Below are positions 34,328 through 64,000 of a stretch of 64,000 nt of DNA, piece by piece. A program made the translations under genes and the position numbers. The number at the start of each line of letters is the position of its first letter. The first letter of the stretch is position 1. Under the pieces are notes generated by a model. That model was not told the DNA's origin. It did not search any database and saw nothing but the letters and a program-made list of their open reading frames with translations. Location of the stretch: NCBI GenBank assembly GCA_022749755.1, contig CM040445.1:4051182-4115181 (forward strand). The letters run 5' to 3'. Origin of the DNA: Azadirachta indica (lineage: Eukaryota > Streptophyta > Magnoliopsida > Sapindales > Meliaceae).

Positions 34328-36983
34328 ATGGAAGAAACATTTGTTCCCTTCCGAGGAATTAAGAATGATCTCAAAGGAAGACTTCTTTGCTACAAGCAAG
34401 ATTGGACTGGTGGTATTCGAGCTGGTTTCAGGTTTGTGGCCCTCTCATTTGATTGTCTCTTGTTGCATAATGCTCTTTTTGACTATCATTACATAATTAT
34501 GATCTGAATTGCGGGCCCAAGTTTTGCTTTCTGGTGTCTGTACACTGTATAGTAATTGCGTATATTAGTAAGTTTTAAGGTTATACGTTTTTAAGTTGTC
34601 GTCCTACTTTATGGCATCTAGGATCCTTGCTCCTACAACATATATATTCTTTGCTTCTGCTATTCCGGTTATATCTTTTGGAGAGCAGCTTGAAAGAAAT
34701 ACGGGTAAGACCTCCTCCCTCGTGCTATTTGCCCGTCCAACGGTCATTGACTAAGACATGCTTTCTTTGGTTGTATGTCACAGATGGAATTTTGACTGCA
34801 GTGCAAACTCTTGCATCAACATCACTTTGTGGTGTCATTCACTCAATTGTTGGGGGACAACCCCTGCTCATACTCGGTGTGGCTGAGCCAACGGTGTTGA
34901 TGTATACATTTATGTTCAACTTTGCGAAAGATCGAAAGGATTTGGGGGAAAAACTATTCTTAGCTTGGACAGGATGGTAACAACACTCTGCATCACTAAA
35001 TAGCAAACTTGGGTTGAACTTTTGTTGATACTAAACCGTTTTCTGTAATCCGTTGGGTTCATAGGGTCTGCATGTGGACAGCTTTATTGCTTTTCTTGCT
35101 GGCCATTTTGGGTGCATGCTCCATTATTAATCGATTTACACGTCTTGCCGGTGAATTGTTCGGTCTGCTGATTGCAATGCTTTTCATGCAGCAAGCAATA
35201 CGGGTAAGTATTATCCATGAAATCACTTTATTAAATGACTCACACCCTTTTTGAGTGTAAGGAGGGTTGAAATGTTTCTGAAAATTTTTGTACATGGAAT
35301 TTCTAAGTATTCTTAATTTCTAGCTTCATTTTAAAAAGTGGTATTCATGAAATAACATATAATTTTTGTTAAAACACCCTTGCAAGAGTAACTAGTACTC
35401 TGTGGAAATTACATTTTCCTTTTTCTTCCTTTCAACTCATGAATTTAATCCAATAGGGATCTGTTGAGGAGTTCCGCAAACCACAGAGAGAAGATCCTAA
35501 TCAGATTTCAATGCATCCTTCTTGGCGTTTTAGCAATGGAATGTTTGCATTGGTTCTTTCCTTTGGCCTTCTTTTTACTGCATTGAGGAGCCGTAAAGCT
35601 AGATCCTGGCGCTATGGATCAGGTACAGCGTCAATCTGACAATTCTGTTGCATATGAGTTGTAAATTCTACATGAATCAGTTGAGGATGTAATTGCCACT
35701 GGGGTTAGTTTATCTCATTCTTTAGACAATTTGGTTGAACACTATCTTTTAGTACCCTGCCTCTCCAGCTGGGAGAAACAGTTTTTCTTCTCAAGTATGC
35801 TCTGTCAGCTGTACATCTCAATAACCTTATCAATTTTTTATTGTGTTTTCAAATCTGTAGGCTGGCTGCGAGGATTTGTAGCAGACTATGGAGTTCCCCT
35901 TATGGTGCTTGTGTGGACTGCGATATCTTACATACCAGTAAATGATGTTCCAAGAGGGATTCCCAGGCGACTTTTCAGTCCAAATCCATGGTCTCCTGGT
36001 GCATATTCAAATTGGACTGTTATCAAGGTGAATCCTGCTGGATAAATTTCACAATATATGAGTCAACACTTGTATTGCGATCTAATTGAAGCACAGATAA
36101 TTTTTGTTATGTTGCATTCAAAGTCTGGCAAGAAACTGATTCTTGTTTAGCTATACAGAAAATGTTGGATGTACCTCCTGTGTACATAGTTGGAGCATTT
36201 ATCCCAGCAACTATGATTGCAGTTCTTTACTACTTTGATCACAGTGTTGCATCTCAACTTGCCCAACAGAAGGAGTTCAATCTGAAAAAACCAGCTTCAT
36301 ATCATTATGACCTTCTACTTTTGGGATTTCTGGTGAGCTGTTTTCTTGGCATACCATTTCTTTTTATGTAATTAATCTACTGAATATCAAATCACAATTT
36401 TTCACCAAAGCAAATTGTTTTAGTATCATCTAATGACTTTTTCTGTATATGATGAATATTTTTCTGATCAGGTAATATTATGTGGTCTTATCGGCGTTCC
36501 TCCATCCAATGGTGTAATCCCACAATCTCCTATGCATACAAAAAGCTTGGCTACCTTGAAACATCAGGTAATTTACTAGCTTACTTGGTTTTTAAAGTTA
36601 CAAGAACCTGGCCTACCTTCTTTTGTTAATTTTTTATAGCCAATTCTTCTTGCTATTTATTTCTTTTTGTGTTAAGTATAAATACTCCCATTACTGTAAT
36701 AAAACTGAAGGAAGATATATTACCTAATGTTGTTTCAATTACTGGGGCACATACAGGAATGAGGTTCAACATTTTGACAAATTGTTAAAATGTGTCTGTA
36801 GAGATGTGTAACTTAATGAGCCAAACGCCTAGTTATTTGAAATACACTTCTACCATTAAGTATGTTGTGGACTTTAAAAATCTATATCTGAACCAAAGAC
36901 CTACTCCCACTCACATGACAATTTACTGCATCATCCCGTGTCCAGGGGCCTTTAACAGTTCCTCTTGGAGGAAACTATTCTAC

Positions 36984-37023
<40 letters not shown>

Positions 37024-38705
37024 TCAGTCACCTTGCTTCTGTTACTGACATCTGCATAACATATTTCAGCTTTATTTGAGTATTCACTTCCCATTGCAAT
37101 GTCTTCTTGATCACATAACAGTTATGAAAATCAGTGTCATCTGTGTCTCTACTGCTTTGACATCTAGATGGCTGCTAATGAATCTTGCTTCTCTTTCCAA
37201 CAGCTTTTGCGAAACAAGCTTGTTTCAACAGCACGAAAGAGTATAAAGAGAAATTCAAATTTGAGTCAATTGTACAGGAACATGCAAGAAGCGTACAATG
37301 AAATGCAGACTCCCCTTGTGTATCAAATGCCACCTGCACTGGTAGATTGATTTGCATTTTACTTGTTGACTGATACAACATTTGTTATCCTTTTCTCCTT
37401 TGCCCTTATTTCTACTTTTAATCAGGGACTGAAAGAGCTGAAAGAATCCACAATCCAACTGGCCTCAAGTTCTGGCTACATTGATGCTCCCGTCGATCAG
37501 GCTGTTTTTGACGTGGATAATGATATTGATGATCTTTTACCTGTTGAAGTCAAGGAACAACGTCTCAGCAATCTGCTGCAGGCATTGATGGTTGGTGGTT
37601 GTGTTGCTGCTATGCCTCTCCTGAAAAAGATCCCAACTTCTGTTCTTTGGGGCTACTTTGCCTACATGGCCATTGAAAGCTTGCCTGGAAATCAATTTTG
37701 GGAGAGGATACTATTGTTGTTCACTGCTCCAAGCCGAAGATACAAGTAAGTATCTGCTGCAGTTTTCTAGTTGTATCTTCATTTGAACTGCCTTCTGCTT
37801 GTTTGGTGCAATGGATTGAGTTTTTTATATAATGAATAGATAGATTTCATATTCTTTAATAAATGCTTCAAAGAAATAAAAACTTGAAATCTATCTAAAT
37901 CATATATCTAAGTAGTTTTAACCGTAGTTCTTCTTGTTATCATCATGTTTGTTATTTATCAGTAGTATTCTTAAAACAATAAGACATCTAATTTCCATTA
38001 TTTGACCTTTCAGGGTTTTGGAGGAGTATCATGCAACATTTATTGAGACTGTTCCCTTCAAAACAATTGCTATCTTTACTTTGTTTCAGACAGTTTATTT
38101 GCTTTCGTGCTTTGGCATAACATGGATTCCAATAGCCGGGGTCCTTTTCCCGCTGTTGATCATGCTTCTTGTCCCAGTGCGGCAATATTTGCTACCTAAA
38201 TTTTTCAAATCAGCTCATCTTCAAGACTTGGATGCTGCAGAATATGAGGAAGCTCCTTCTGTTCCTTACAACATGACATCTGAAGTAAGCTTATTCAAAC
38301 TCTTTCCTTGTCTCTCACAACAGAGTGATCACGGATAAGCTAAGATTAGTTTTGGAAATTTTGGTTTTAATCTGCGTTGCTTTCTTTGATTCACAGAATC
38401 AATTTTCTCAGGGAAGAGCTCACCACATGAATAGTGGGGAAATTCTAGATGAAATAGTCACCAGAAGCCGAGGTGAGATCCGTCATATACAGAGTCCGAA
38501 AATCAGAAGTTCAACTCCAACTTCACTTAAGGATATGCAGGCTTTGAACAGTCCACAGATGCAAAGAGCATATAGCCCCCGTGTCAGGGAACTCAGGGTG
38601 GAGGGAAGCCCTGAGCTGAATGGAAAAGGACCGGAAGCAAAGAAAACTCCCAGTCCTAGGCCATCTAAGCTTGGACCAAGCAGTCATGGTTCACCTTCAA
38701 GCTAA
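34328..38705 (+). CDS. BOR1: BOR1-type borate efflux transporter, copy a
   Basis: SLC4-like plasma-membrane exporter that moves borate from root cells toward the xylem. Twelve exons (34328-34431, 34622-34704, 34784-34976, 35065-35203, 35457-35622, 35861-36027, 36159-36332, 36472-36567, 37204-37341, 37426-37745, 38014-38284, 38397-38705) join in frame to 719 residues; AtBOR1 has 704. It opens [15 protein letters not shown] ([10 protein letters not shown]), continues with [11 protein letters not shown] and [20 protein letters not shown], and has about ten or more hydrophobic segments. Asp311, needed for transport in AtBOR1, is present. In the cytosolic loop, Tyr398 and Tyr405 sorting motifs remain but position 373 is His. 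Lys592 aligns with AtBOR1 Lys590, the ubiquitination site for high-boron degradation. The C-terminal tail is Ser/Pro-rich. All introns are GT-AG. It lies upstream of NIP5;1 on the same strand. Confidence 0.95.
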
Positions 38706-39183
38706 GGTCCTAAATGCATAGTTTACCTCAGTCAGTTTAGTTGTTAATGGTGGTTGAGAGGTCTTGTGTTAAAGTCCACGTAAGTTAGCGTTAGGGGTAT
38801 GTTTCTCTTCATGTTTCTGACCATACGGTGTTTGTGAGTGGTAAATGTTCTTAGTATTGTATCTCCCAGAAATGGGCAGGGGACGGATTTATGTTAATAA
38901 AAGAAATGTTTGGTAGAGTTTTTATTGTTTTAATCTTACAGCATGGGTGCTGTTCAGGTATAGCTTCATTTCAGTGAGTTTGATATCTGTCCTCCGAAGA
39001 AAAATGGTTGTTAATACGAGGGAAGCTTAAAAATTGTATTGCTTTAAGAATGCATATAAAAACATCGTGTGAATGAATGAATGAACACATATATGATATA
39101 TAGCTGCTTATCATCCTAAAAGCCATCTCTTTTCTCCATCAAATATTATGTTAGAAAATTTTCATTCAATCTCGATTACCATT

Positions 39184-39540
39184 TGTTAGGCCTTATGTCT
39201 TCAAGCCCCAAATTTTTATTTTCTTCCCTAGGCTCGCAAGTTAGGACTCATAAATAAGAGAGTTTTTTTAGTCGTTGAATCTAAAGTCCGGTTCATAGAA
39301 ATAGAATAAATCCCAAATTACTATTTCTCTATTAAAATTTTATTAAAATTAAAATTCTGAAAGATCTGATTAAAAAAAAAAAAGAAAAAAGAAAAATATA
39401 TAAGAAAAGAGAAAGTAAAGAGAGGGTGGACTTCTTCTTTTTTTCATGTACAAATAAATTTATTTGTTGATATAGATGACGAAATTTGGTAAAAATAGTT
39501 AGCGTTGTCTGTGAAAAAGACAAAAAAACTAATTTCTTAT
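39184..39540 (+). repeat. Left LTR-like direct repeat
   Basis: Starts TGTTAGGCCT and matches 41337-41715 along most of its length (CTTCCCT, AAGAGAAAGTAAAGA, ACAAATAAATTTATT and ACGAAATTTGGTA are shared in order). Near its end AGCGTTGTCTGTGAAAA resembles the decayed sequence following a plant left LTR. No reverse transcriptase is seen between the repeats. Confidence 0.55.
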
Positions 39541-39859
39541 TATTTAAAAAGAATCTATTACAATAAGAAAATTTCATATTGTACTGAAATCTATGCCTTA
39601 AATAAATTAATAAAATATAATATTTCAATTTGTTTGATAAATGCTCTTTAATCTTTTTCTTATATCATAATTTAATGACATATTTAACTTATGTCCTTGA
39701 TATAAGTGTTTTGAGTATATATATCATCTTTTATTCATTTATGTTTAATTAATTTATGTTACTATTCTGTAAACTTTATTTATTTGTCGTATTTAAGAGA
39801 AAACAACTAATATATTATATATGATTCAAAAGAATAATTATGATGTAAAAAAAGGTATC

Positions 39860-40960
39860 AAAGAGTTATCAATATCTTGTCTAGAAGGACACAAAAAGTA
39901 CTAAAAAAGTATCAACATTTTATTCATAAAGACACTAAAAAAATTGTGCTGAGAGATATCACACATTGTCTAGAATGACATAAAAAAATAGTAAAGAGGT
40001 ACTCATATTTTGTCCAAAAGGATATAAAGAAAAAGTACCAAAAGGGTACCAACATTTTATCCAAAAGAGCACCAAAAAAATTGTACCAAAAAGGATATTA
40101 TATCTTATCCAGAAGGATATAAAAAAGTACTAAAGTGGTGCTAACATCTTGTCCAAAAGGATAAAAAATATATATCAAAAGAGGTACCAACATTTTATCC
40201 AAAAGGATAAAAAAATACCAAATAAGTACTAACATCTTGTCCATAAGGATACATAAAAAAAGTTATACTAAATAGGTACCACATTTTGTCCAAAAGGATA
40301 CAAAAAAGTACTAAAGAAGTACTACACCTTATTCAGAAGAACATAAAAAAGTATCAACGAGGTACTAACATCTCGTTGAGAAGGAGACCAAAAAAAAAAT
40401 ACCAAAAAGGTACTACAATTTTGTTCAAAAGGACACCAAAAAATATACCAAAGAGATACTAACATTTTATCTAGAATGATATAAAAATAGTACCAAAGAT
40501 GTACCAACATTTTATTTAGAAGAACACTAAAAAAATTATATAGAAGAAGTATCACATCTTGTTAGAAGGACACCAAAAAAAAAGAAAAAAATAGCAAAAA
40601 GGTGTCAACGTGTTGTTCAAAAGAAGGACACAAGAAAATGTACCACCAAAGTATCAACACATAATTCAAAAGAACGAAATCAAGTGCCATCAAAATACTA
40701 ATACATAATTCAGAAGAATAAGATCACGTGCCATCAAAGTATCATTATTCGTATCGTTATTGAAAAATGTGCCACCAAAGTATCGTTATTCAAAAGTGTC
40801 CCATCAAAGTACTAATACGTAGTTCAAATAAACAAAATCATGTGCCATTAAAAGTATCAACATATAGTTTAAAAGAACAAAATAATGTAATACTGATATT
40901 CAGTCTAATCCATAAGGAGAAAAATCAAAATATCACCATGGTACCATCATTTAAAAAGAA
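39860..40960 (+). repeat. Degenerate minisatellite, about 45-nt unit
   Basis: The core ATTTTGTCCAAAAGG or ATCTTGTCCAGAAGG recurs roughly every 40-50 bases (for example near 40009, 40053, 40100, 40149, 40191, 40233, 40285, 40370, 40418, 40463), alternating with AAAGTACCAAAGAGGTACC. At least fifteen units to about 40620, then shorter related units. The period is a multiple of three, and on the minus strand one stretch reads as 15-residue repeats. Confidence 0.7.
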
Positions 40961-41020
40961 CAAAAATCAATGTACTTTTGTAGTACTAATATTAAGTCTA
41001 AAACGATAAAAGTAATTAAA

Positions 41021-41395
41021 TAAATCTTTACAGTACCAACATCAAGTCTAAAAAGAATTATAGATCCAAAAGCTAAAGTTTTAACAATTAGAAAAAATCT
41101 TCTAACTTTTGAAATTGAGAAACTCGTGTTAGATCTCATGTCTTCGAGTCTCATATTTCGAAAAAGTTTCCTATTTCATTAAATTTTTGTAATACCAATA
41201 TCAAGTTTAAAAGAATAAAAGTAATTAAAGAAACCTTTACGGTACCAACATCACGTCTAAAAAGAATTACAGATCCAAAAATTAAAGTTTCAACAATTAG
41301 AAAAAAATATTCTAACTTTTGAAATTAGGGAACTCCTGTTAAATCTCATATCTTCATATTCTAAAAAAAAGCTTCCTATTTCATTAAACTTTTAT
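41021..41395 (+). repeat. Tandem duplication of about 190 bp
   Basis: The segment starting AATCTTTACAGTACCAACAT (41021) is repeated from about 41231 (ACCTTTACGGTACCAACAT). They share AAAAGAATTA, GATCCAAAA, AACAATTAGAAAAAA and TCTAACTTTTGAAATT. It sits between the minisatellite and the right LTR-like repeat and partly copies the start of the latter. Confidence 0.65.
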
Positions 41396-41715
41396 TTTCT
41401 TCCCTGAGTTATGCAAGTTGGGCCTTAAAAATAAGAGAGCTTTTTTAATCATTTGATCTAAAGCTTGGTTAATAAAAATAGAGTAAATATCAAATTATTA
41501 ATTTTTTTATTAGAATCTCATCAAAATTAAAATTTTAAGAGATTCAATCAAAAGAGAAAAAAGAAAAGTTTATAAGAAAAGAGAAAGTAAAGAAAAAGAA
41601 AGTTTTTTTTTTATACAAATAAATTTATTAGTTAATATCATACGACGAAATTTGGTATTAACATTATTTTTCTGTCACCTATAGAAAATAAAGTTAGTTT
41701 AAAGAAAAATCAAAT
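41337..41715 (+). repeat. Right LTR-like direct repeat
   Basis: Direct repeat of 39184-39540, starting TGTTAAATCT. With the left copy it brackets a gene-less, minisatellite-filled interior of about 1.8 kb, as in a non-autonomous LTR element (TRIM/LARD-like). Divergence is high, so the insertion is old. Confidence 0.55.
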
Positions 41716-42147
41716 CTCCCAAAACCAAAAAAAAAAAAGCGAAAAAAAAAATCATCACAAACGATTCCTGATTTGTTATTTCATCAGAGAGCCTGGGGGG
41801 GTGGAATGCTGCTATACGAAACTACTTGGCATCATAGACACAAAGAAAAGACAGCCGTAATATATGACCTTAAATAATAGTTCGGACCAGGGCCGGAGGG
41901 CAGGCGATGGATGACGGAAAGAATGAATATTGGATACAATAATAATAATAGAGGGAACGAAGTGAAACGGAAATTTTACAGGAAAAAAAAAAAAAAGGTA
42001 AGCCTAAGATGATACGAACCATGAACTTTTGTGGGGCCCAGGTTTTGTGGCTTTCTCTTTCTCTTTCAGTTTCAGACCAATCATCTCTATTTTATAAATT
42101 AATTGGGAATGTGAATTGTGTCATATCATACCCACACAATACAATTG

Positions 42148-42148
42148 C

Positions 42149-42199
<51 letters not shown>

Positions 42200-42270
42200 C
42201 AGAGAGAGAGACACACACACACAGAAACACACTCCCATTCCACACCCCCCCCCCCCCCCCCCCTCCTCCT
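42148..42270. repeat. Compound microsatellite with 19-C run
   Basis: (AT)n, then (GA)n, (CA)n and an uninterrupted run of 19 C at 42245-42263. It lies about 1.55 kb upstream of the NIP5;1 ATG. Confidence 0.9.
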
Positions 42271-42349
42271 CGAGGTAATTACAGCAGAAGGATTAATCTA
42301 ATAATTGTTGTTTTGTATGATGCATATAATCAATTAGTTTGTTTAATAT

Positions 42350-42515
42350 ATTATTGAAAGAAAGGTCCGTGGAATTATTTAAGTGAAAATGAAGACTTTC
42401 TGGACATGAAAAGAGGTTTTGTCATTATAGACAGGCTTAATTGAATAAATTATTGGGTACTTCTATGTCATCTGCCTGATACAATATTAGTCATATATTC
42501 ATCAGATCGGACGGC
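42350..42515 (+). repeat. NIP-flank repeat A1 (upstream of NIP5;1)
   Basis: Contains TTGAAAGAAAGGT, TATTTAAGT, GCTTAATTGAA and AAATTATTGGGTA, all found in the same order at 47126-47525 (A2), downstream of the NIP gene. It is part of the promoter-distal region of NIP5;1. Confidence 0.65.
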
Positions 42516-43006
42516 GGCTGTGGTCTCTGATTATGGCTGATCATGCTCTCTCTCTCTCTCTATATATATATAATTATTTCATATAAACACTTCCAACATC
42601 TAAGATTAAATCTAAGTAATATAATTAATACATAATTAATATATTATAATTAATATGCCTATTAAATTTAATATCAACTCTAAAATTATTTCGATTTAAC
42701 AGTACATAAAATAGTATAAGAATATGCCATCTTGATTAGTCTCCCACTGTACGTGTGTGTATATATTTATATATTTTGCTTGCAACTGTAAATCAAAAGG
42801 GTAATGGAAATAGCTGTTTAAGTTAAGATGTGAAGGGATGGGCAATGCATTGACTTCGTCTCTTTTACAGTTAGACATGACATGATGATGAAGCCAAGAA
42901 TTGAATAATTCCATGGCCTCTGCCTTTTCATTTATAATAATATGCAATCACTGACTTTCTGCACTCCAACTTCCCTTCCCCACCGAATGCGTCATCCTCA
43001 TCTATC

Positions 43007-43014
43007 TATATATA
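43007..43014 (+). promoter_or_regulatory. NIP5;1: Candidate distal TATA box of NIP5;1
   Basis: TATATATA, followed by pyrimidine-rich sequence. If used, transcription would start near 43040 and all three AUG-stop elements would be in the leader. Not proven. Confidence 0.35.
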
Positions 43015-43280
43015 CATATACGTTTGTTACAAATCACTTGCAATTAGTTTGCATCACAAGTATAACAATCTGGTTTATCTCCCCTTTTCTTTCGATCGAT
43101 TTAATCCTTTTCACATTCCTAAGTTTACCTTTGTATACCAACTAATTTTCACCGTCTCACCTTCGTCATGTTGTTAAGTCTCTGCGACTCTGCAACATCT
43201 TCCATTCGTTTAGCTCTTTGAGTCTGGATCCGTTCGTTTTCTCTGTTCTTTAACCTCAATCTTATAAAAACCATTCAAGC

Positions 43281-43286
43281 ATGTAA
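43281..43286 (+). promoter_or_regulatory. NIP5;1: AUG-stop element 1 in the NIP5;1 leader
   Basis: ATGTAA preceded by TTATAAAAACC and AAGC. It is the most diverged of three related modules and lies 535 bases upstream of the coding ATG. It is followed by a 33-A run at 43342-43374. Confidence 0.6.
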
Positions 43287-43339
43287 ATTAAGCTTCCCCT
43301 TTCTACTTTGATTGACCGAATCCTATCTCAGAAAAAACC

Positions 43340-43375
<36 letters not shown>

Positions 43376-43507
43376 CATTGACGAGTCGATGAATTCGATC
43401 GTTGTCTACTCAAAGAGGTAAAGTACTGCTTATCCTTGTGTAGTCTTAACCTGGCTCTATCCATTTCTGTTATTCCTTAACAACACATTTATAAAAGCCT
43501 CCAAATC

Positions 43508-43513
43508 ATGTAA
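43508..43513 (+). promoter_or_regulatory. NIP5;1: AUG-stop element 2 in the NIP5;1 leader
   Basis: ATGTAA in the context TTTATAAAAGCCTCC then AAATC. The context differs from element 3 at one base across 26. In Arabidopsis NIP5;1 mRNA, AUGUAA stalls ribosomes and triggers mRNA decay when boron is high. Confidence 0.7.
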
Positions 43514-43702
43514 GATTTAGTTCTTCCTATCCAAACTCAAAATCAGAAAAAAAAAATTAAAAAAATTAGTAGGAGGATTATATATATCATACATGCATTT
43601 CTTAATGTTCGCATAAAGATCTCCGATATATCATTAGCGGTATCAGTCCTGGAAAGGATTAAGACGATTCTGTAGAAGCAATTTTATAAAAGCCGCCAAA
43701 TC

Positions 43703-43708
43703 ATGTAA
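43703..43708 (+). promoter_or_regulatory. NIP5;1: AUG-stop element 3 in the NIP5;1 leader
   Basis: ATGTAA in the context TTTATAAAAGCCGCC then AAATC, 113 bases before the coding ATG. It is followed by a pyrimidine-rich stretch and an A-run (about 43751-43773). It is the element most likely to be in every NIP5;1 transcript. Confidence 0.75.
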
Positions 43709-43815
43709 TAGTTCTCATTCATTCTTACTCTCCCAAATCTTAAAAAGCCAAAAAAAAAAAAAAAAAAAAAAAAGAAAAGTTTAGACACATAATATAAGAA
43801 AAGAAGAAGAAGAGA

Positions 43816-45874
43816 ATGCCGGAATCGGAGACAGGAACTCCTGCGGGGTCAGCGCCGGCCACTCCGGGGACACCAGTACCGCTCATTTCATCTATGCGGG
43901 TGGATTCGCTGTCTTACGATCGACAGTCAATGCCTCGATGCAAGTGCCTCCCAGTTACTGTCCCAAATTGGGGTCAACCTCACACCTGTTTCACTGACTT
44001 CCCGACTCCCGATGTCTCTCTTTCCCGGAAGGTACCACTCTTTCCACTGCACACGTCACCTCATTTACTATACTGGTTTTTATCTCCCAGTTTTTATATT
44101 TTATTGCGTGACTTTGCCCCCTTTGTATATCATCTCAAAAGATAATGTATCCTAATTAGTTGTGAGCAATTAAAAAGGGAAAAAGAAAAAAAAAAAAAAG
44201 ACAAAACATAACATAACGTGCAAACTTATGTATGAGAGAAATTAGAGTTCACATGATAGTTCCAAAACATATTGAACGTATCAGTTTGTGTCTTTTTTGT
44301 TTTTTTTTTTCATTAATCCAATTCAATTCACTCACACAAAACATTACCCGAAAGAAACATAGGTATGAACTGATGAATTATCTAAATTAAAATTGAGGAG
44401 ACTAATTAATGATTGAACGAATAAATTAACTGGGAATTATAATTTAAGAAGGTTGAGTGTGGGATATTGCAGATAGGTGCAGAGTTTGTGGGAACATTCA
44501 TCCTGATATTCGCGGCGACAGCAGGAGCCATAGTGAACCAGAAATACAATGGAGCAGAGACACTGATAGGTAATGCAGCATGTGCAGGGCTGGCAGTGAT
44601 GATCATTATCTTATCAACGGGACACATCTCCGGAGCTCACCTGAATCCGTCCCTCACCATAGCATTTGCAGCACTGCGTCATTTCCCATGGGCACAAGTG
44701 CCCGCTTATATAGCAGCACAAGTATCAGGCTCCATATGTGCTTCCTTTGCTCTCAAGGTTGTATTCCATCCTTTCATGTCCGGTGGCGTTACCGTTCCCT
44801 CCGTAAGCGCCGGTCAGGCCTTCGCCCTCGAGTTTATCATTACTTTCAATCTCCTGTTTGTTGTCACCGCAGTTGCCACTGACACTCGCGCGGTATATCA
44901 GAACTCGATTATAAATATCAATATTTATTTGTTACATTATATAATCACATGTATGTATTTTATCTTAAAGATTATTCGTTGTTGGTCTTTTATACATACA
45001 TATATATATATATATATATATGCATTGATGACAGGTAGGAGAGTTGGCAGGAATAGCAGTGGGAGCTACAGTTATGCTCAACATTCTCATAGCTGGGTCA
45101 GTAATATTTTCTCCGTCCCTATCAATTATATCAATTATAATTAATTCCTAATTTTGACATATATGCACGGAAAGCAGGGTGGAGTCAGAACTAGAAAATT
45201 AAGTGGCAAAAAGGTGTTAAAAATAAAAATAATTAATATAATAACGAATAAAGTGATAATATTTTAAAATATAAAAGTTAAAATATATGTAAATTAAAAA
45301 ATTGAGTCAAAAAAATAAATAAATATTTATAATAAAAAAATAAAAAAATTTTATGGGCCTGGAGAGAGGCCAGGATGCGTTCCGCCACTTATGGAAAGGA
45401 CAGAAACCGCGTCTATCGAGCTCTATTATTATCTCTAATCATAAAGTATATATATATATATATATATATAAGAGTAGGTCCGCCGACCCTATATTACATG
45501 AAGTCGACGTTTTAGCTTAGGGTAGAGGTAAGAGTACTGTTTGGCATTGGCGTGCTTTTGGACTTTCTTGCGTCTGCTAGCCTAGATACATGGCTACAAA
45601 GAGAATCTATACGTTCTATATTTATTTGTATATCAAATTATAATTCATTAATTTGACGTATAGAATGGAATGCAGGCCATCAAGCGGCGGCTCAATGAAC
45701 CCTGTACGCACTCTGGGCCCGGCGGTTGCGGCAGGAAATTACAAAAAATTGTGGATATATCTTGTGGCACCTACAGTTGGGGCCATAGTCGGTGCTGCTA
45801 CCTACACTCTCGTCAAGCTCCGCGACGGCGAGGCAGCTGATCCGCCACGCCAGGTCAGAAGCTTCCGTCGCTAG
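43816..45874 (+). CDS. NIP5;1: NIP5;1-type boric acid channel (aquaporin, NIP subgroup II)
   Basis: Plasma-membrane channel for passive boric acid uptake into root cells under boron limitation. Four exons (43816-44031, 44473-44892, 45035-45096, 45676-45874) join in frame to 298 residues; the Arabidopsis protein has 304. The two pore motifs are NPS (130-132) and NPV (241-243), the unusual pair of NIP5;1; Ala110, Gly238 and Arg244 fit the wide subgroup II selectivity filter. Six membrane segments are visible from about residue 74. The N-terminus (1-72) carries RCKCLPV and CFTDFPTPDVSLSRK as in AtNIP5;1, with one TPG (16-18) of the phosphorylated repeat linked to polar localisation. The C-terminus ends VRSFRR, also as in AtNIP5;1. 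Intron 3 (45097-45675) holds a MITE-like insertion. The gene is flanked by BOR1 genes on the same strand. Confidence 0.96.
45178..45388. mobile_element. MITE-like insertion in NIP5;1 intron 3
   Basis: About 211 bp, AT-rich inside. The left end GGTGGAGTCAGAACT is an imperfect inverted match to the right end (reverse complement GTGGCGGAACGCATC). The inner segment GGGCCTGGAGAGAGGCCAGG is typical of a short repeat common in plant genomes. No coding capacity. Confidence 0.5.
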
Positions 45875-46840: not shown

Positions 46841-47125
46841 ATTTCTTTTGTTTTTAATTAATTAAATATTCGTTTGTTTAATAATACATTATTATTTTTT
46901 TATATTACAACTTATAATATACTAAACATTATATGTTTACGAAAAATTTAAATATAATAATTATAATACATCACAAATATCTGTATCTAATATGTACGAT
47001 ACTTATTTAAATAAGAGTAAGAATTTACTTACATGAGAGATGAGAAAGCATACCAAAGTAGGAGAGTTTTAGTTAATCAAAATATGTTACCACTAGGTCA
47101 AGGCCTTGGTGTCATTTTTTGATAT

Positions 47126-47525: not shown

Positions 47526-47529
47526 GATG

Positions 47530-52982: not shown

Positions 52983-53013
<31 letters not shown>

Positions 53014-54322
53014 TAATAATAATAATAATAATAATATGTTTCAACCATTTACATAAGGTTTTAGATGTTTAACATTACCTAGTATTTAAAGATAATTTAT
53101 TTCACTATTTTATCTTTTGTTCGAGGTTTAGGTAGGTATTGTACATCATACTTTTTGGTCCGCACTATAATTTAACATAATATATTTATTTATTTATTTA
53201 TTTGTCTTATTACCTCACAGAAAAATCCACACAGCCAACCCAAGCCAATTGCCAGTCAAGATGTAGCTGTAGCAATAGCATAGCATATAAGGTGTGCTCA
53301 TTATTACTCGTATAATCATACTTCCCAAAAAATAATAAAATTAAAAAAAAAAAAAAAAAAAAAACTGATAAATTTTCTCAACTAGGCACATTGCTAGGTA
53401 GTTGACAAGAAGCACGCTCCAATTATTTAAAATGAGAGTTTTAACACGTAATTTGCTTAAGTTTTCAGACTTTATCCATGATAAAGAAAGTATTAAAAAA
53501 AAAATTTATCTTTCCTAAATTATTAATTGACCGTCTATTTTTATTAAAATAATTATAATACTCCTAATTATTGTAAGACAATTTAAAAAATTTAATTTAA
53601 TAGTTATCCAAATTAGAACTAATTAACATGCAAGTGTGAAGACATTCAAAAGAGGAATAGGTAGGATTGTATCTTTATGCAATTTTATTGTACTGCCATT
53701 GATGGTAACAATTGACTATATATAATATTAATTTGATTTGTTTGTAATCTTGTATTTTGATTATACTTATTAGTCCTTCGACAATAGCCAAAAATTTTTT
53801 GTATTATTTTAATCTAATTTATTAGTTATTATTTTGAAAATAAAAAAAAGTAAACCCAATGGAGAATAATAGTTATACATACTAATAATTTTATTATTAT
53901 ATTTTTTTTATGTTTAATTTAACATTTTACAAATAAACAAATAAATAATCACCGATTTTGGCTGTTGAGCGCAAAGGATTGCATCATATGAAACTTAATT
54001 TTTAAATTATATTTTATTTATTGGTAAGTCTAACCGTCAGCGCGCCTCATTTTAAGGACGGCAATTACTCATAATTAATTTGTCATATGAAAAACCCATA
54101 TATCAAATCAAAATACCATGTGGCAAAGTAAAAATTGACGGAGACTATTCGAATAATTAAATAGATTATAAAATGTTTTAAAAATATTATCATAAACACT
54201 AACATTACAAAGTCAAAAACAATTAAATAAAATTGCCGCACACACATATATATATATATATGGACCAAAAATATTTTAGGTTAAGAGCATTTCTCACCTA
54301 ATTAAAATATAATTACTTAATT

Positions 54323-55244
54323 AAAAAAAAGAAAAACCATAATTTTTTCTTGATAAATTTGAAATCTATCATTTTTCTCTTGTTACATTAAAATAGTCAA
54401 AAATTCTTCTACCTTTGCCTTTTTTTTTAAATAAAAATTAGCATTTTTTTTTTGTCAATTTATTGGATTGCTCGTATCAATTTGGATGATCTATTTAAAT
54501 TTGGGTTATGTCACTTTTTTATATTAAAATTAATTTTTTTATAAATTTATTATTTTGTCCATACTGGTTTAGATGACTTATTTAAATTTGGGTTTGAAAT
54601 TCGGGTTGGATTTGGGTGAGAAAAAAATTGCTTTAATTGTAAGTCAAACCCTTGCACTCTAACAAAACTACAAGGGCTAAACCACTAGACCAAAACAAAT
54701 TTTAAGATAATATTTGTAATTAGTAATATATATATATATACTTTTTAAATATAATATTGTCATACACATTAAAATAATAATTATTGTATATAAATTTTTT
54801 TAAAAAATTAATATATTTAACTATTAATATATAAAACCAAATCAATTTTGTAAAATTAAAGTTAGGAAATTCATATTTAATTGTTTAAAATTATTAGTTT
54901 AATTTTTTTATTTATTGTAAAATTTAGTTTAATTGTTTAAAATTATTTATTGTAAAATTATTAAAAAAGAGAAAAACTATAATTTTCTCCTGATAAATTT
55001 GAAATATATTATTTCTCTCTTATTACAACAAAATAGTCAAAAACTCTTCTGCTATTACTTATTTTATTAAAATTAGTATTTTTTCATAAATTTATCGTTT
55101 TGCTTTAGATGATTTATTTAAATTTGGGTTACGTTATTTTTTGTGTTAAAATTAATTTTTTTTTATATATTTATTATTTGTCTATACTGGTTTAGATGAG
55201 CTATTTAAATTTGGGTTTGAAATTCGGGATGGATTTGGGTGAGA
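54323..55244 (+). repeat. Direct repeats of about 300 bp with an intervening insertion
   Basis: 54323-54637 and 54963-55244 share TTGATAAATTTGAAATCTAT-like, ATAGTCAAAAA, TTTAAATTTGGGTTA, ATACTGGTTTAGATGA and GGTTTGAAATTCGGG. The common continuation (AAAATT, AAGTTAGGAAATT) follows directly at 55250 but is displaced to about 54854 in the first copy. About 210 bp are therefore inserted there, including a tRNA-like stretch on the minus strand at 54640-54700. Confidence 0.6.
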
Positions 55245-56294
55245 AATTCTATAAAATTGAAGTTAGGAAATTTATCTTGCCTAAGAGTTTGAGACAAATT
55301 CTGTTAAACACATGTAATCTTCTTATAAACATCACATAATACAACTTATAAATAATGTAAATGGCCTCAAGCTTCTATTATTAACATCCATTGAAGTTTC
55401 ATGCCTAATTCAAACACGTATATACATGATCTATATTATAGTCACATATACACGTATTTGTCTTACAAATATACATATATATATAAACATGATAATATAT
55501 AAACATGACACATTCAAAATATTTTCATGTAATATGTGTAGAGTAGTTTCAACATCATTACTAAAACTATACTCTACACAAAATTCTGCGTGATCTAAAA
55601 AGAAATAAGAAAAATAGAGAAAAGAATGAATTTGCAACTCAATGAGTAGATATAATTTATAAGAAAATATATTTTCATAAATTAGTGTAATATATCTTTA
55701 AATCATGTATAAATAGGACATCATCTGCATAATGAGAATATTATATCATGACACGTAATTCATATAACACCCGGAGAAATTATCATATTTGGCAGAATTA
55801 CCATCACCCAAATAGAAAAATCATACTCAACTCAGTGGCCTCATATCAATAAAAGAGAACACAATTTATACTATAGATCATATATATATATTTTCACAGG
55901 TTCTAAGGACTTTAAATTCAAAACTAGAAAATGGGTACATGTGAAGTGATTTAAACAAATAGAAACAATAAAAATATTAAAACCTATTCAAAATTTGATA
56001 TATATCACAAATATAAAAATAAAAAACTGCTTCAATTTCATAAATATTCTATTTATAGAATTTTTGGATTTCAATATCTCTTCCTGTATTTTTTCAAGAA
56101 TTCTTCCTACTTTCTTATCCTTCACTTTTTCTTTCCTATTCTTCTCCATTTTTCTCCCCCTCGGTTTCCTTCTCTTCCTCTATTTTTTCTTCACAGTTCT
56201 CTCTTTTCTTTCCTTCTCTCTCTCTCTCTCTGGGACTCCAATTGCTTCTCTTTAGTTTGCTTTCAAATTGAAAATTCATAAAACGCAACACATA

Positions 56295-56345
56295 ATATAT
56301 ATATATATATGTGTGTGTGTGCGCGCACGCGCGCACGCGTGTGTA
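56295..56345. repeat. 51-bp alternating purine-pyrimidine tract (Z-DNA candidate)
   Basis: (AT)n passes into (GT)n, then a GCGCGCACGCGCGCACGCG core and GTGTGTA, strictly alternating purine and pyrimidine for 51 bases. The GC core stands out in very AT-rich surroundings and is partly self-complementary. Confidence 0.85.
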
Positions 56346-58147
56346 GCCTTACCGCTTCAAATTACTATTTTATTATTATTTATATTTTCTTTCCTTGACA
56401 CTTGTTATGTAAAGTGTCTCAATTTTAATTTTCTTTACACAAAATAATTATTAATTTAATGTTATAAAATTATAAAATTTAATATTGCAATATAATTATA
56501 ATATGTTAAAATATTATATATAAAATTTTGATGGTTTTTTGGCTATTTCCATGAAAAAAGAGTAAACTTTTATAATAAAAAAATAAGTCGAATTAATGAT
56601 GCAGTTGCAACTGAAATTGACAGAATATTCCTAGTATGAGGAATTAATATCTCCTAGCTTAGGTGTTAGTGTTTTAGAGGTCGATAATGATACGTAAGCG
56701 TTTAACCTAGATAGCTAGGTTGTTAGCCATATAATACCGATAAATACCAATTAATGCATTAATTAAATAAATAAATTACCAACATTTAATTAATTAATTA
56801 ATTTTTAGAAGATGTTTAAACTTAATTTGAAAGTATGAATATCTAGACCGATTTATAAATATTGTGCGTTGTAAAGAAGTTGAAGCATATATATATATAT
56901 ATATATATATAGTCAGGAAAGCGATGGGATTGCTTTTATAAAGTAAAGTAAACTATATATAAGAATATGTATGTAAATGTACGTACATCTTGAAAAGGTT
57001 TGCCATTATTCAAAATTTGTGGATGATAATATATATTAATTTTTTGCTTTTTTGAGACGAGATGATATTATATAATATTATTAATTTGATAATTTACGAT
57101 ATTGATAATAATTAATGTTTGAAAGGGCTGTCGTACGTTATTGAAATGAAGTTGGCGTAACCAAACCAACCCCGAAAGGGTAAAGGGTAAAGTGTAAAGG
57201 GTAAGTAAGGATCCATTACCGTGACTATAAATTTAAATTAATTAAATTTGATTAATTATGATAAGATATATGATATGATGAAGATGAACATTAATCATTT
57301 AATTAATTAAAATATATCTTAAGTTTATATATAAAAATCAGTTGATAAGATATTGTGGTTGAATGAGTTATTAAATTTAATATCGACTAATGATATGATA
57401 TGATATGATATGATATTATATGATAATGGTGTAGACTAGGTTGGATTACAGTTGATTAGAACTTATAAGTTAATTAATTAAGAAGAGAGAGTATAACTAA
57501 TTAATGTGAATGTCGACTGAGACTGATCAGGATTCATCTAACCTGGATCTGACCAATTATAAATATATTCTAGTAATTAAAGTTAATTAATTAGATTTAC
57601 ACGCGTATATGATTAGCTTTAGGCCATGCAATTTAATTAAGATAACATTTAATTAACTAAAGGATCTATATAAGATAATATAATGGCTTCACGATCTACT
57701 TACTACTCACTCACCCAAATCTCGAGAGTCATTTGCTAAGCCTCATCACTTTCTCAGTTATATATAAATATGTATTAACCCACCCTTTTTCTCTTCTATT
57801 TAGGAAACAGAGAGAGAGAAAAGGGCAAGAGGTTAATTTTAAAGTAAATATAAATCTTACATGCAGATGGTCTAAGATCATTCCAGATTCCAGCAGTGAA
57901 AGTGAGGAAGTAATCTTTTGAATATTTAGTTTATTTTAAATCACTTTTTACGATTTTTATTTATTTACTTCACAAAAATATATATATATATATATTTTTT
58001 ATAATATAGATAAATAATAGATGATAGAAACTAGATAGTTTTTTTCGTACAAGGAAGAAAGAAGTAGAAGTAGTTCCTTAATTTCCATCTTTTTCAGTCC
58101 TTTTTGTTGGTTACAGCAGAAAGCTTGCTCTTGCATCACTGTTTTTG

Positions 58148-58183
<36 letters not shown>

Positions 58184-59050
58184 AATTAGAAGTTTCAATT
58201 CTTTCAGCCGTCGACAGTCCCTATTGCAATTTGCTATTTGACCATATTTAGATAAAAGTATATGTTAATTTTTTATTTTGCAATTTGCAATTTGATCATA
58301 TTTGGATAAAAGTATGTGTTAATTTTTTTAACTTAAAATTTTAAATTTAAGAATGAATCCTTAATTATATATTTATTTATTTATATAATATTGTTGTTGA
58401 GTACACTGTAAACTTTTAATCAAATGTAGTTCCCGAAATTTCTAATAATAATGGAATTGTAGAAGTCATTGATAATTGTATTTTTGTAAAAAGCCTTACG
58501 TCAAATAAAAATAACGCGTCCATAAAAGTTCAATATTTAAAAATTTAAAAAAAAAACTGATGAATCATATTATAATTAATTGATTATTTATTTCTAAAAT
58601 TAATTTATTGCATTGGATTTGGGAGTTTATTCTTACGGTTGAGAAATATTTAGTTTAGAAATCAAAATAATTAAATTAACACAAAGATAATTAATGTAAT
58701 CATTTTCATTTAATTAATTAATTTTTTTAGTTTTCTGTTCTTGTCTTCTGAAGCAACCGTTACTCTATTACTTTCACTGCTTTCTCTCTCTCTCTCTCTC
58801 CGTCACATTGTTTGGTTGTTTTTTTTTTTTATTTATAAATGCTTAGTCACCGCACACTAACTCATTCTTGTTCACGCGAAAATCCTTCCATTGCAGAGTT
58901 CATTCGCAAAATCTGTTCTTGCTTCCTCTTAATCTTCGTTGTCTATCTATCTGTTTCTTCTTGCTCTTGTAACTGTAATCTTTCTACACATATCCTACCT
59001 TCTTGTCCTTAAAAATCATTTTTTCTTCTCAATACTGTTCTTTTTCAATA

Positions 59051-59705
59051 ATGTAATCTTGATTTGCTCCTTTCTTGTGTGTTCCTGTTTCCCTTTGGTT
59101 AATGCCCATTTCTTTCTAACTTGTTTAAACCAAAAATTCTAATGATTTCAATGATGGGTTTTCGTTAATCTTGCGTGTCCTGTTTTCTTTGTGTTTCCAC
59201 AAGGATTTTCTTGAGTTCTCTGGATGCCCATTTACTTTAAATTGATTTAGAACATCAAGCTGTTGTTGTAATGGGGTTCCGTTAATTTTCTGATTCTCGT
59301 GTCCAACTATAGGAAGTCTCAATCTTGACTGGTACTTTGTCAAATTTTGAGCATGTAAAGTTAATGTAAGTTTTACTTCTCTTGCGTTCTGTTTTAGTTA
59401 ATGTAAATTTTTGGCGGGATTCATTTGATGAACAGAAATCTTCATTGGATTGGGTGAAAACAGATGGTGATGGATCTTGGTTGTGTTGAAGTAAACTGTT
59501 AATTGAATTCTGAGCTTATGGAGAGAATCTGTTCATTTCGTTAACTTATTAACTTTTTCCAAGTTCACAATGAATTTGCTTCGCTAATATCTTTGAATTT
59601 TTATTGATACATGGAATCAAAGTAGTTTGATTGATAACTAACTGATTCTTTTGTTCTTTATAGCAGTATACCACTGATATTCTTTATAGATTTCCTAAAA
59701 TGTAA
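59051..59705 (+). promoter_or_regulatory. ATGTAA (AUG-stop) elements upstream of BOR1b
   Basis: ATGTAA at 59051, 59353, 59401 and 59700, each the positional counterpart of one upstream of BOR1a (33434, 33716, 33771, 34059). The contexts are shared: TTGAGCATGTAAAGT for the second and ATGTAA shortly before TTTTTGGCGGGATT for the third. A CT-rich tract (58782-58800) marks the likely start of the leader region, as in copy a. Presence in mature mRNA is unproven. Confidence 0.4.
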
Positions 59706-59986
59706 ATCTTTGATATTGAGCAATTTATTTACTTATACGTCCGAATATGATAAATCCACATTTTTCTTCTGAAAATTTATGATGAACAATAAGTCCTTGT
59801 CTTTGTCCCCATAGTTTCTTGTATTTATCTTCTGCTTATGCCACTCTAGTGCTAGTTTTGGCCTCTCGAGTCACTTTATCTTTGTTGAATTTGTCTCTTG
59901 AATTTCATCTCTATTGGTTGGTTGTTCAAACAAGAAGGAGAAAGAACACCTTAAATTTGCTCTTGTTTTTAAAATTTTGAGTTATC

Positions 59987-62900
59987 ATGGAGGAAACATT
60001 TGTTCCCTTCCGTGGAATTAAGAATGATCTCAAAGGAAGACTTTTGTGCTACAAGCAAGATTGGACTGGTGGTCTTCGAGCTGGTTTCAGGTTTGTGGCC
60101 CTCTCATTTGATTATATGTTGTTGCATAATGTTGTCTTTGACCATCGTCATATAATCATTAACCGAATTGCTAGCTCAATATTGCTTTCTATCTTTCCAC
60201 AGTATAAATTGATTGCAAATATTAGATGTTTTAAGGTTATATTCATTTTGAAGTTATCATCACTGTTTTCTGGCGTTTAGGATCCTTGCTCCTACGACAT
60301 ATATATTCTTTGCTTCTGCTATTCCTGTTATATCTTTTGGGGAGCAGCTTGAAAGAAATACCGGTAAAACCATCTTTGTTGCAGTGCCCTCTTGCTATTT
60401 GCCCTTCCAATGGTCATTGACTAAGACATTCTTTATTTGGTTTTATGTCACAGATGGAACTTTGACTGCAGTGCAAACTCTTGCATCAACATCACTTTGT
60501 GGCGTCATCCACTCAATTATTGGAGGGCAGCCCCTGCTCATACTTGGTGTGGCTGAGCCAACGGTGTTGATGTATACATTTATGTTCAACTTTGTGAAGG
60601 ATCGAAAAGATTTGGGGGAGAAACTATTCTTAGCTTGGACAGGATGGTAACAATGCTCTGCATCACTAACTTGTACATTTGGGTTGATTTTCTGCTGATG
60701 CTAAAATATTTTCTGTGATCTGTCGGGTTCCTAGGGTCTGTGTCTGGACGGCCTTATTGCTTTTCTTGCTGGCCATTTTGGGTGCATGCTCCATTATCAA
60801 CCGATTTACTCGCCTTGCCGGTGAATTGTTCGGTCTGCTGATTGCAATGCTTTTCATGCAGCAAGCCATACGGGTATTATTCTTCACAAATTTGCTTTAT
60901 TTATTGACACCCTTTTGTGTGCAAGGAGGTTCTGAGTAATATTGATTTTCAAAAGTAGTGTTTAAGAAATATAATACTTTTTCTATAAAGCACTGTGCAA
61001 GAAAAACTAGTACTCTATGGAAACTCTATTTTTCTTGTTTTTACTTCATATTGATGAATTTAATCCTATAGGGAGCTGTTGAGGAGTTTGGCAAACCACA
61101 GAGAGAAAATCCTAATCAGATTTCATTGCAACCTTCTTGGCGTTTTGGAAATGGAATGTTTGCATTGGTTCTTTCTTTTGGACTTCTTTTTACAGCATTA
61201 AGGAGCCGTAAAGCTAGATCCTGGCGCTATGGATCAGGTACAAGGTTACTCTGACATTTCCATCAAATATGAGATATAAATTCATCAAATTCTTTTAATC
61301 ATGCAATTACCATTGGTTAGCTTATCTCCTTCTTTAAATAATGTGGGAGAGCTCTTTTCTTCAGTTCCCTGGTCTCCGGTTGGGAAAAGTACTGTTGTTC
61401 TTCTCAAGTATGCTATTAAAGCTGTAAATCTCGTTAATCTTATCAATTTTTGAATGTGATATCCACTCTGTAGGTTGGCTACGGGGATTTATAGCAGATT
61501 ATGGAGTTCCCCTTATGGTGCTTGTATGGACTGCAATATCTTACATACCAGTAAATGATGTTCCAAGAGGGATTCCCAGGCGACTTGTCAGTCCAAATCC
61601 ATGGTCTCCTGGTGCATATTCAAACTGGACTGTTATCAAGGTGAATCCTGCAGGAAAATTTTCACAATATATGAGTCGACACTTGTCTTGGCATCTACCT
61701 TTGTGTTATGTTGCATTCAAGGTCTGGGAAGAAACTGATTCTTGTTTAGTTGTACAGGAAATGTTGGATGTACCTCCTGTGTACATAGTTGGAGCATTTA
61801 TTCCAGCAACTATGATTGCAGTTCTTTACTACTTTGATCACAGTGTTGCATCTCAACTTGCCCAACAGAAGGAGTTCAATCTGAAAAAACCAGCTTCATA
61901 TCATTATGACCTTCTACTTTTGGGATTTCTGGTGAGATGTTTTCTTGACATACCATTTCTTTTATGTATTTAATCTACTGAAATTCGAATCTCAATTTTT
62001 TCCAAAGCAAATTTCTTTGGTATTATCTAATCACTCTTTCTGGATATGCTGAATATTTTCCTACCAAGGTAATATTATGTGGTCTTATCGGCATTCCTCC
62101 ATCCAATGGTGTAATCCCGCAATCTCCTATGCATACAAAAAGCTTGGCTACCCTGAAACATCAGGTAATTTACTAGCTTACTTGGCTTCTAAAGTTACAA
62201 GAATCTGGCCGGTATAGCAGCAGAATTTTATAAATCTTTTATACTCAAATCTTCTTACCATTTATTTCTTTTTGCGTTAAATTTTAATTCTCCCATCACT
62301 ATAATAAAACTGAAGGAAGATAAATTACCACTATTGTTTCAATTGCTGGTGCACATACAGGAATGAGGTCCCATGTTCTGACAAACTGTTAAAATGTGTC
62401 TATAGAGATGTGTAACTTAATGGGCCAAATACTAGTTAATTCAAATATACTTCTATCATTCAATATGTTGTTATAGACGTTTTAATCTATATCTGAACCT
62501 AAGACCTGTTACCCTCACATGACAATTTACTACGTCAACCAGGGTCCAGGAGCTTTACGGTTTTTCATGGCGGAAACTATTCTACTTTCATATATATTCT
62601 CAGTCACCTTGCTTTTTATATTGACGACTGCATAACAACATTGTGGCTTTTTTGAGGATTCACTTACTGTTGCAATGTCTTCTTGATCGTGTAACAATTA
62701 TGAAAATCAGTGTAATCTATGTTTCTACTGCTTTGACATCTAGATGGCTACTAATGAATCCTGCTTCTCTTTCTAACAGCTTTTGAGAAACAAGCTTGTT
62801 TCAACAGCACGAAAGAGTATAAAGAGAAATTCAAATCTGAGTCAATTATACAGGAACATGCAAGAAGCATACAATGAAATGCAGACTCCCCTTGTGTATC

Positions 62901-64000
62901 AAATGCCACCTGCACTGGTAGATTGATTTGCATTTTACTTGTTGACTGATACAACATTTGTTATCCTTTTCTCCTTTGCCCTTATTTCTACTTTTAATCA
63001 GGGACTGAAAGAGCTGAAAGAATCCACAATCCAACTGGCCTCAAGTTCTGGCTACATTGATGCTCCCGTCGATCAGACTGTTTTTGACGTGGATAATGAT
63101 ATTGATGATCTTTTACCTGTTGAAGTCAAGGAACAACGTCTCAGCAATCTGCTGCAGGCATTGATGGTTGGTTGTTGCGTTGCTGCTATGCCTCTCCTGA
63201 AAAAGATCCCAACTTCTGTTCTTTGGGGCTACTTTGCCTACATGGCCATTGACAGCTTACCAGGAAATCAATTTTGGGAGAGGATACTATTGCTGTTCAC
63301 TGCTCCAAGCCGAAGATACAAGTAAGTATCTGCTGCAGTTTTCTAGTCGTATCTTCATTTGAACTCCCTTCTGCTTTTTTGGTGCAATGGATTGAGTTTT
63401 TTATACAATGAATAGATAGATTTCATATTCTTTAATTAATGCTTCAAAGAAATAAAAACTTGAAATCTACCTAAATCATATATTTAAGTTGTTTTAACTG
63501 TAGTTCTTCTTGTTATCATCATGTTTGTTATTTATCAGTATTATTCTTAAAACAATGAGACATCTAATTTCCATTTTTTGACCTTTCAGGGTTTTGGAGA
63601 AGTATCATGCAACATTTATTGAGACTGTTCCCTTCAAAACAATTGCCATCTTTACTTTGTTTCAGACAGTTTATTTGCTTGTGTGCTTTGGCATAACATG
63701 GATTCCAATAGCGGGGGTCCTTTTCCCACTGTTGATCATGCTTCTTGTCCCAGTGCGACAGTATTTTCTCCCCAAGTTGTTCAAATCAGCTCATCTTCAA
63801 GACTTGGATGCTGCAGAATATGAGGAAGCTCCTTCTGTTCCTTACAACATGACATTTGAAGTAAGTTTGAATACTCTTTCCTCATCTCTCACCACAGAGT
63901 GATCATGGATAAGATAAGATTAGTTTTGGAAATTTTGTTTTTAATCTGTATTGCTTTCTTTGATCCACAGAATCAGTTTTCTCAGGGAAGAACTCATGAC
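59987..64000 (+). CDS. BOR1: BOR1-type borate efflux transporter, copy b (runs off the window)
   Basis: Tandem paralogue of 34328-38705 with the same exon plan. Exons: 59987-60090, 60281-60363, 60454-60646, 60735-60873, 61072-61237, 61474-61640, 61758-61931, 62069-62164, 62780-62917, 63002-63321, 63590-63860, 63971 onward. Exons 1-11 match copy a in length exactly and give 617 residues; ten more codons are visible in exon 12. No stop or frameshift. Asp311, Tyr398, Tyr405 and Lys592 are kept and position 373 is again His. Differences from copy a are scattered (for example [16 protein letters not shown] against [16 protein letters not shown]). The intron before exon 8 ends in AAG rather than CAG. 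Both copies look functional; division of labour between them is a guess. Confidence 0.95.

Follow-up and report, generated by a model that had tools for sequence, protein, structure and literature searches.

Results

Gene content of the locus

The window, by which we mean the whole 64,000-base stretch of Azadirachta indica DNA analysed here (C6:4051182–4115181 of a 280.8-Mb assembly in 21 contigs), carries three transporter genes, which follow one another on the forward strand within 29.95 kb in the order BOR1a, NIP5;1 and BOR1b (Table 1). Their exon models were built by hand with GT-AG introns. All three genes are intact, which confirms the original prediction that a NIP5;1-type channel gene is placed between two BOR genes on one strand in less than 30 kb. 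The last exon of BOR1b crosses the window end and was taken from the genome, where its stop codon ends 279 bases further on. NIP5;1 starts 5.1 kb after the end of BOR1a, and BOR1b starts 14.1 kb after the end of NIP5;1.

In a Pfam scan that left out BOR1b, BOR1a matched HCO3_cotransp (PF00955; 2.3e-91) and NIP5;1 matched MIP (PF00230; 1.7e-54), and an ncbifam scan returned general MIP-family matches, all below their cut-offs. The top solved-structure match of BOR1a was Arabidopsis Boron transporter 1 (1245 bits, residues 1–699), the matching AtBOR1 structure chains being those of 8teg, 8tej and 5l25. The neighbours on the left were assigned by Pfam as a Dof factor, an L7/L12 ribosomal protein, a PWWP protein, a Fumble piece, which we take to represent the pantothenate-kinase family, and a NifU_N protein. 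The last, which we name ISU, is the nearest left-hand gene. To the right are a MYB ORF and a TPT-family piece, the latter on the opposite strand. A diverged tandem array of 44–46-bp units is found between BOR1a and NIP5;1.

Table 1. Features of the BOR1a–NIP5;1–BOR1b locus, numbered from the first base of the window.
Feature	Position	Strand	Description
Left BOR unit copy	33159–38911	+	~1.1 kb upstream, gene and 3' flank; self-comparison
ATGTAA minimal-ORF cluster, BOR1a	33434–34064	+ (gene)	4 upstream
BOR1a, clade-I borate exporter (putative)	34328–38705	+	12 exons, 719 aa
Silent-site segment	34328–36158	+	BOR1a vs BOR1b, 79.0% identity (1042 sites)
Silent-site segment	36472–37203	+	BOR1a vs BOR1b, 84.0% identity
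Probable gene-conversion tract	37204–38013	+	exons 9–10 and introns 9–10; 96.6% silent-site identity (416 sites)
Tandem array	39893–40582		44–46-bp units
AUG-stop module 1	43262–43286	+	TTATAAAA-N11-ATGTAA; exact; exact in paralogue
AUG-stop module 2	43489–43513	+	TTATAAAA-N11-ATGTAA; exact; exact in paralogue
AUG-stop module 3	43684–43708	+	TTATAAAA-N11-ATGTAA; exact; one mismatch in paralogue
NIP5;1 boric-acid channel (putative)	43816–45874	+	4 exons, 298 aa
N-terminus of NIP5;1	43816–43890	+	one TPG repeat
Short interspersed repeat	45224–45353		inside intron 3 of NIP5;1
Right BOR unit copy	58713–64473	+	ends ~470 bp beyond the window; self-comparison
ATGTAA minimal-ORF cluster, BOR1b	59051–59705	+ (gene)	5 upstream
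BOR1b, clade-I borate exporter (putative)	59987–64279	+	12 exons, 719 aa

Assembly soundness

The window is free of N bases. In whole-assembly DNA searches, which skip simple repeats, the NIP5;1 locus (40 of 110 candidates scored) and the BOR1a unit each gave one full-length match, at 100%. The next matches were BOR1b (85%) and the NIP5;1 paralogue, which is on the same chromosome and aligned at 71–91% in five pieces. For the ISU exon, the assembly contains just one match. As the window lacks N and these searches showed no second near-identical copy of the locus, an assembly artefact, which the original prediction named as a possible refutation, is unlikely, and no sign of one was seen here. 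The possibility that the two BOR genes are haplotypic duplicates was rejected, since their silent divergence is too great and the searches showed no second copy of the locus.

Near-identical sequence does occur twice on one contig elsewhere. A gene that we provisionally call NIP6;1-like is found twice on C3 (near 1.27 and 7.58 Mb), inverted and 99.57% identical over 3.2 kb, and several genome-wide matches to the AUG-stop pattern described below likewise occur twice per contig. Such pairs suggest that haplotypes were kept in the assembly or that large stretches were duplicated very recently.

The duplicated BOR unit

Self-comparison aligned 33292–38911 with 58901–64473 (84.7%) and 33159–33236 with 58713–58796 (77%). 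The two BOR units thus constitute a 5.7-kb direct repeat, with copies 25.7 kb apart, that brackets NIP5;1. Identity drops beyond the 3' edge of the unit, which stops at the BOR gene and leaves NIP5;1 outside. Across the window and the following 28.8 kb, tblastn detected no NIP5;1 pieces other than the gene itself. Duplication of a block comprising BOR and NIP5;1, followed by loss of one NIP5;1, is without support, as there is neither a NIP5;1 remnant in these 28.8 kb nor long homology beyond the BOR gene.

The BOR1a and BOR1b proteins are 93.6% identical (dS 0.153, dN 0.033, ratio 0.21, or 0.13 for residues 1–616), and the most diverged part is exon 12, which encodes the cytosolic tail (dN 0.12). 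Divergence at silent sites, taken as introns plus four-fold sites, is uneven along the gene (Table 1). Identical silent sites continue unbroken for up to 132 positions (37311–37671), a length reached in none of 5000 permutations, in which the longest run averaged 38 and never exceeded 82. Intron identity is 71.7–88.6% in nine cases but rises to 100% for intron 9 and to 95.5% for intron 10. This pattern is probably due to sequence exchange between the two copies by gene conversion, the alternative being local constraint on the introns.

Lineage of the exporters

Both exporters had been labelled BOR1-type, which holds at the level of the clade but not in the sense of AtBOR1 orthologues, as AtBOR1 has its closest counterpart in a C1 gene (17.645–17.649 Mb). 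Identity to the AtBOR1 PDB chain was 85.6% for this C1 gene. The C2 gene, whose model is short of exon 1, followed at 78.7% and the two window BORs at 77.1 and 76.8%. In a seven-sequence tree with AtBOR1 as its one named plant sequence, AtBOR1 and the C1 gene were joined (91/96), the window pair grouped separately (100/98) and the position of the C2 gene was unresolved. The same tree contained a 100/100 split of the clade-I BORs, both window copies included, from the C3 and C7 genes, which are presumably BOR4-like. The window BORs are thereby placed, on sequence grounds, in a separate clade-I lineage rather than as orthologues of AtBOR1, and may correspond to Arabidopsis BOR3 or to no Arabidopsis lineage.

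Further BOR loci comprise three genes in tandem on C3, two on C7, exon matches on C4 and one on C13. In addition, matches to BOR exon 3 are found at 14 places of C2 between 0.58 and 2.80 Mb, each with one to three stops in the matching part, and four more BOR-piece matches are located at 22.3–23.6 Mb of C2. They may be copies of one gene fragment that a repeat or mobile element has dispersed.

The channel, its paralogue and the AUG-stop modules

NIP5;1 has NPS at residue 130 and NPV at residue 241 in place of NPA. With positions counted from these NPx motifs, its filter is A at H2, I at H5, G at LE1 and R at LE2; the selectivity filter of AtNIP5;1 is A-I-G-R. Tomato NIP5;1 carries NPS/NPV, with the filter tabulated as S-I-A-R (PMC3834038). 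The N-terminus contains one TPG repeat, as against two in the paralogue, and this repeat is reportedly crucial to the polar localisation of AtNIP5;1 (PMC12666852). Intron 3 holds a short interspersed repeat, which recurs at 75–86% identity in at least 36 other places, as counted from the 45 listed matches (40 of 110 candidates scored).

The second NIP5;1 is located at C6:1.031–1.034 Mb on the opposite strand and encodes a protein 89.2% identical to that of the window gene, with a dS of 0.436. No third NIP5;1 was found in the assembly, the next best protein match being at 74%. The surroundings of the second gene include a stretch, several kb long, of ORFs that by eye look chloroplast-like (rpoC2-, rps2- and atpI-like), an ORF resembling a LINE-type endonuclease plus reverse transcriptase, and protein-kinase gene pieces (L017:2154–3684). 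At4g10390, the neighbour of AtNIP5;1, is presumably a kinase gene, and the second locus with its kinase pieces could represent the ancestral surroundings of NIP5;1. Three ORFs taken from there, of which two are kinase pieces, had no match in the window, the 28.8 kb beyond it or L012 at E values up to 1.

Upstream of the NIP5;1 coding sequence, a module consisting of TTATAAAA, 11 variable bases and ATGTAA occurs three times (Table 1), the letters of TTATAAAA being taken from the repeated modules of this genome and not from the literature. The window holds no further matches on either strand with up to one mismatch. Shuffled controls contained a mean of 0.47 modules, and three were reached in 2 of 100. 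Genome-wide, the pattern matched 106 times versus 146 for a reversed control; as this amounts to no enrichment, the signal is in the clustering and not in the count. The three modules would lie within the NIP5;1 mRNA. AtNIP5;1 has been described with two AUG-stops, preceded 12–19 nt upstream by a conserved stretch (PMC12666852), and a rapeseed NIP5;1 with two uORFs (PMC8279314), so that the third module is one more than given in these accounts for either species. Arabidopsis AUGUAA has been tied to ribosome stalling, mRNA decay and transcription (PMC11915504), and by analogy the neem gene may be under AUG-stop boron regulation.

ATGTAA upstream of the exporters

The NIP5;1 module is absent from the leaders of BOR1a and BOR1b, allowing for up to one mismatch. 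The bare ATGTAA hexamer, in contrast, occurs four and five times, respectively, in the 1050 bases upstream of the two genes, compared with about 0.4–0.5 expected over a nearly equal stretch and with one each upstream of the C1 and C2 BORs. Across the window, it is at chance level (78 versus 75.7). As BOR1a and BOR1b are copies, the excess counts as one observation and not two. Three of the four BOR1a hexamers could be placed in register and all three are kept in BOR1b, the fourth falling at an alignment gap; this retention says little, since 0.32 of all hexamers are kept. The excess could reflect shared boron control. If the hexamers are in the mRNA, the importer and the linked exporters share a minimal-uORF logic; if they are intronic, as the BOR leader may be, they are meaningless.

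Linkage in other genomes

The original prediction had the two partners unlinked in Arabidopsis, and the locus numbers agree (NIP5;1, At4g10380; BOR1, At2g47160; BOR2, At3g62270; BOR3, At3g06450). Both NIP5;1 genes of soybean are on chromosomes 10 and 20, where none of the 15 listed BORs is found, these being on chromosomes 3, 4, 5, 6, 9, 13, 15, 17 and 19 (PMC11770081). In rapeseed, NIP5;1 genes are given on A02, C02, A03, C03, A07 and C06 (PMC6852077) and BOR1 genes on A04, C04 (two), A05, A03 and C03 (PMC6137915); as the lists overlap, A03 and C03 carry both. Among the titles and abstract openings listed in full-text searches of the open-licence literature, none reports BOR–NIP5;1 linkage, and the accessible portions of that on longan, Medicago, grapevine and tomato give no usable pair of positions. 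The proposal that the linkage matters was partly supported, in that the linkage is real and shows no sign of artefact. It is weakened on three counts: the linked exporters belong to a separate clade-I lineage, the linkage is not general, as soybean and Arabidopsis are unlinked, and neither BOR has the AUG-stop module of NIP5;1, although the bare ATGTAA excess at both BORs points the other way.

Within the assembly, C6 carries the two NIP5;1 loci and C1 the best match to AtBOR1. In 60 kb around the second NIP5;1, of which 10 kb are N, tblastn gave no BOR match at E values up to 0.001, and likewise none for Dof, L7/L12, PWWP or ISU. The chance of finding one of two NIP5;1 genes within 26 kb of any one of 4, 8 or 11 BOR loci was computed as 0.15, 0.30 or 0.41%, which are rough figures obtained after the pair had been noticed.

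Discussion

Origin of the cluster

Our preferred reading, to which we assign a probability of about 0.6, is that of a lineage-specific proximal cluster that arose by ordinary duplication, the linkage being probably incidental or at most tied to the added exporter dosage. A NIP5;1 copy would have come to adjoin a clade-I BOR that is not the AtBOR1 orthologue, and later the BOR alone (5.7 kb, from the upstream region to the 3' flank) would have been copied across to the other side of the channel gene. Since then, purifying selection has maintained the two BORs, which probably exchanged sequence by gene conversion. The NIP5;1 duplication looks older because its dS exceeds the ~0.18–0.25 of the unconverted BOR parts, an order of events that is insecure as rates may differ between genes. 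Each gene probably does the job of its family. By analogy with the known members, NIP5;1 would admit boric acid and be switched off at high boron through ribosome stalling at the AUG-stops, and the BORs would export borate. Proximal duplication most likely brought about the linkage as a by-product.

This duplication account is favoured because other BORs are in tandem as well (the three on C3), because the BOR unit excludes NIP5;1 and no extra NIP5;1 piece is found nearby, and because the three models are intact, the BOR dN/dS is 0.21 and AtBOR1 finds its best match on C1. Counting against an incidental linkage are the chance of adjacency of only ~0.3% and the surplus of ATGTAA ahead of the two linked BORs.

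The same geometry can be read as a locus labile in copy number. As the BORs are direct repeats with apparent exchange, unequal recombination between them could delete or duplicate NIP5;1, leaving a hybrid BOR and heritable, selectable variation in boron uptake. The same-strand arrangement of the repeats 25.7 kb apart, the 132-site run, which indicates exchange, and Cape Verde Arabidopsis, where tandem BOR1 copies raise leaf boron (PMC13037888), all speak for it. We nevertheless consider it unlikely, since it is based on one sequence, the repeats are ~85% alike overall, which lowers crossover rates, and gene conversion is no proof of crossover.

Slightly more improbable is a cluster kept together by selection for shared chromatin or regulation, or for co-inheritance of boron-efficiency alleles. 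Functionally paired genes that are adjacent on one strand and intact, with constrained BORs, would be expected from it, and both the low chance estimate and the ATGTAA excess upstream of the two BORs agree. However, the partners are unlinked in Arabidopsis and soybean, AtBOR1 is best matched by a C1 gene, the 60 kb around the second NIP5;1 (part N) showed no BOR, and the NIP5;1 module is absent from the BOR leaders. The boldest combination, in which recombining BORs bracket the channel and shift importer and exporter dosage jointly, with all three genes under shared AUG-stop boron control, is a conjecture against which we would lay long odds.

A mere accident, in which unrelated insertions or rearrangements fell side by side without any functional consequence, is given a slim chance: proximity of family copies is expected at ~0.3% and many gene pairs could catch a reader's eye, but both BOR copies are under constraint, so the extra copy is probably useful. 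Misjoining of haplotypes or paralogues is scarcely credible despite the twice-occurring sequences elsewhere, such as the NIP6;1-like gene, given the N-free window, a BOR1a–BOR1b silent-site difference of 16–21% over most of the gene, which exceeds that of alleles, and the single occurrence of the NIP5;1 locus, the BOR1a unit and the left-hand ISU gene.

What is new is the anatomy, namely, a BOR direct repeat around NIP5;1, signs of conversion and three AUG-stop modules. The geometry, with two same-strand BORs in apparent exchange bracketing an uptake channel, is the part that deserves testing. With an importer placed between exporters that show signs of exchange, one could ask directly whether changes in copy number are how boron transport capacity evolves, and for a boron-efficiency QTL at this locus, the effects of importer and exporter would be hard to separate.

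Comparison with known systems

NIP5;1 resembles AtNIP5;1 in its MIP fold, the NPS/NPV motifs and AUG-stops in the predicted leader, and differs in having three such modules instead of two. Compared with AtBOR1 (At2g47160), the window BORs keep K590, present as K in both BOR1a and BOR1b, as well as Y398, Y405 and Y414, whereas Y373 is replaced by H, as it is in the C1 gene, and by Q in the C2 gene. K590 is described as a ubiquitination site of AtBOR1 (PMC12666852). Like Arabidopsis BOR3 (At3g06450), they are putative borate exporters outside the BOR1/BOR2 pair, and BOR3 has been modelled as working with a polar diffusion facilitator while itself being non-polar (PMC13420508). The closest parallel in copy number is found in Cape Verde Arabidopsis, with three independent BOR1 tandem duplications on Fogo (PMC13037888). 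Both systems have an extra clade-I BOR next to the first. The Cape Verde duplications are recent and polymorphic, and the accessible portion of that report does not mention NIP5;1 in the duplicated region (PMC13037888), whereas the neem pair is old, with a silent divergence of ~0.2, and brackets NIP5;1.
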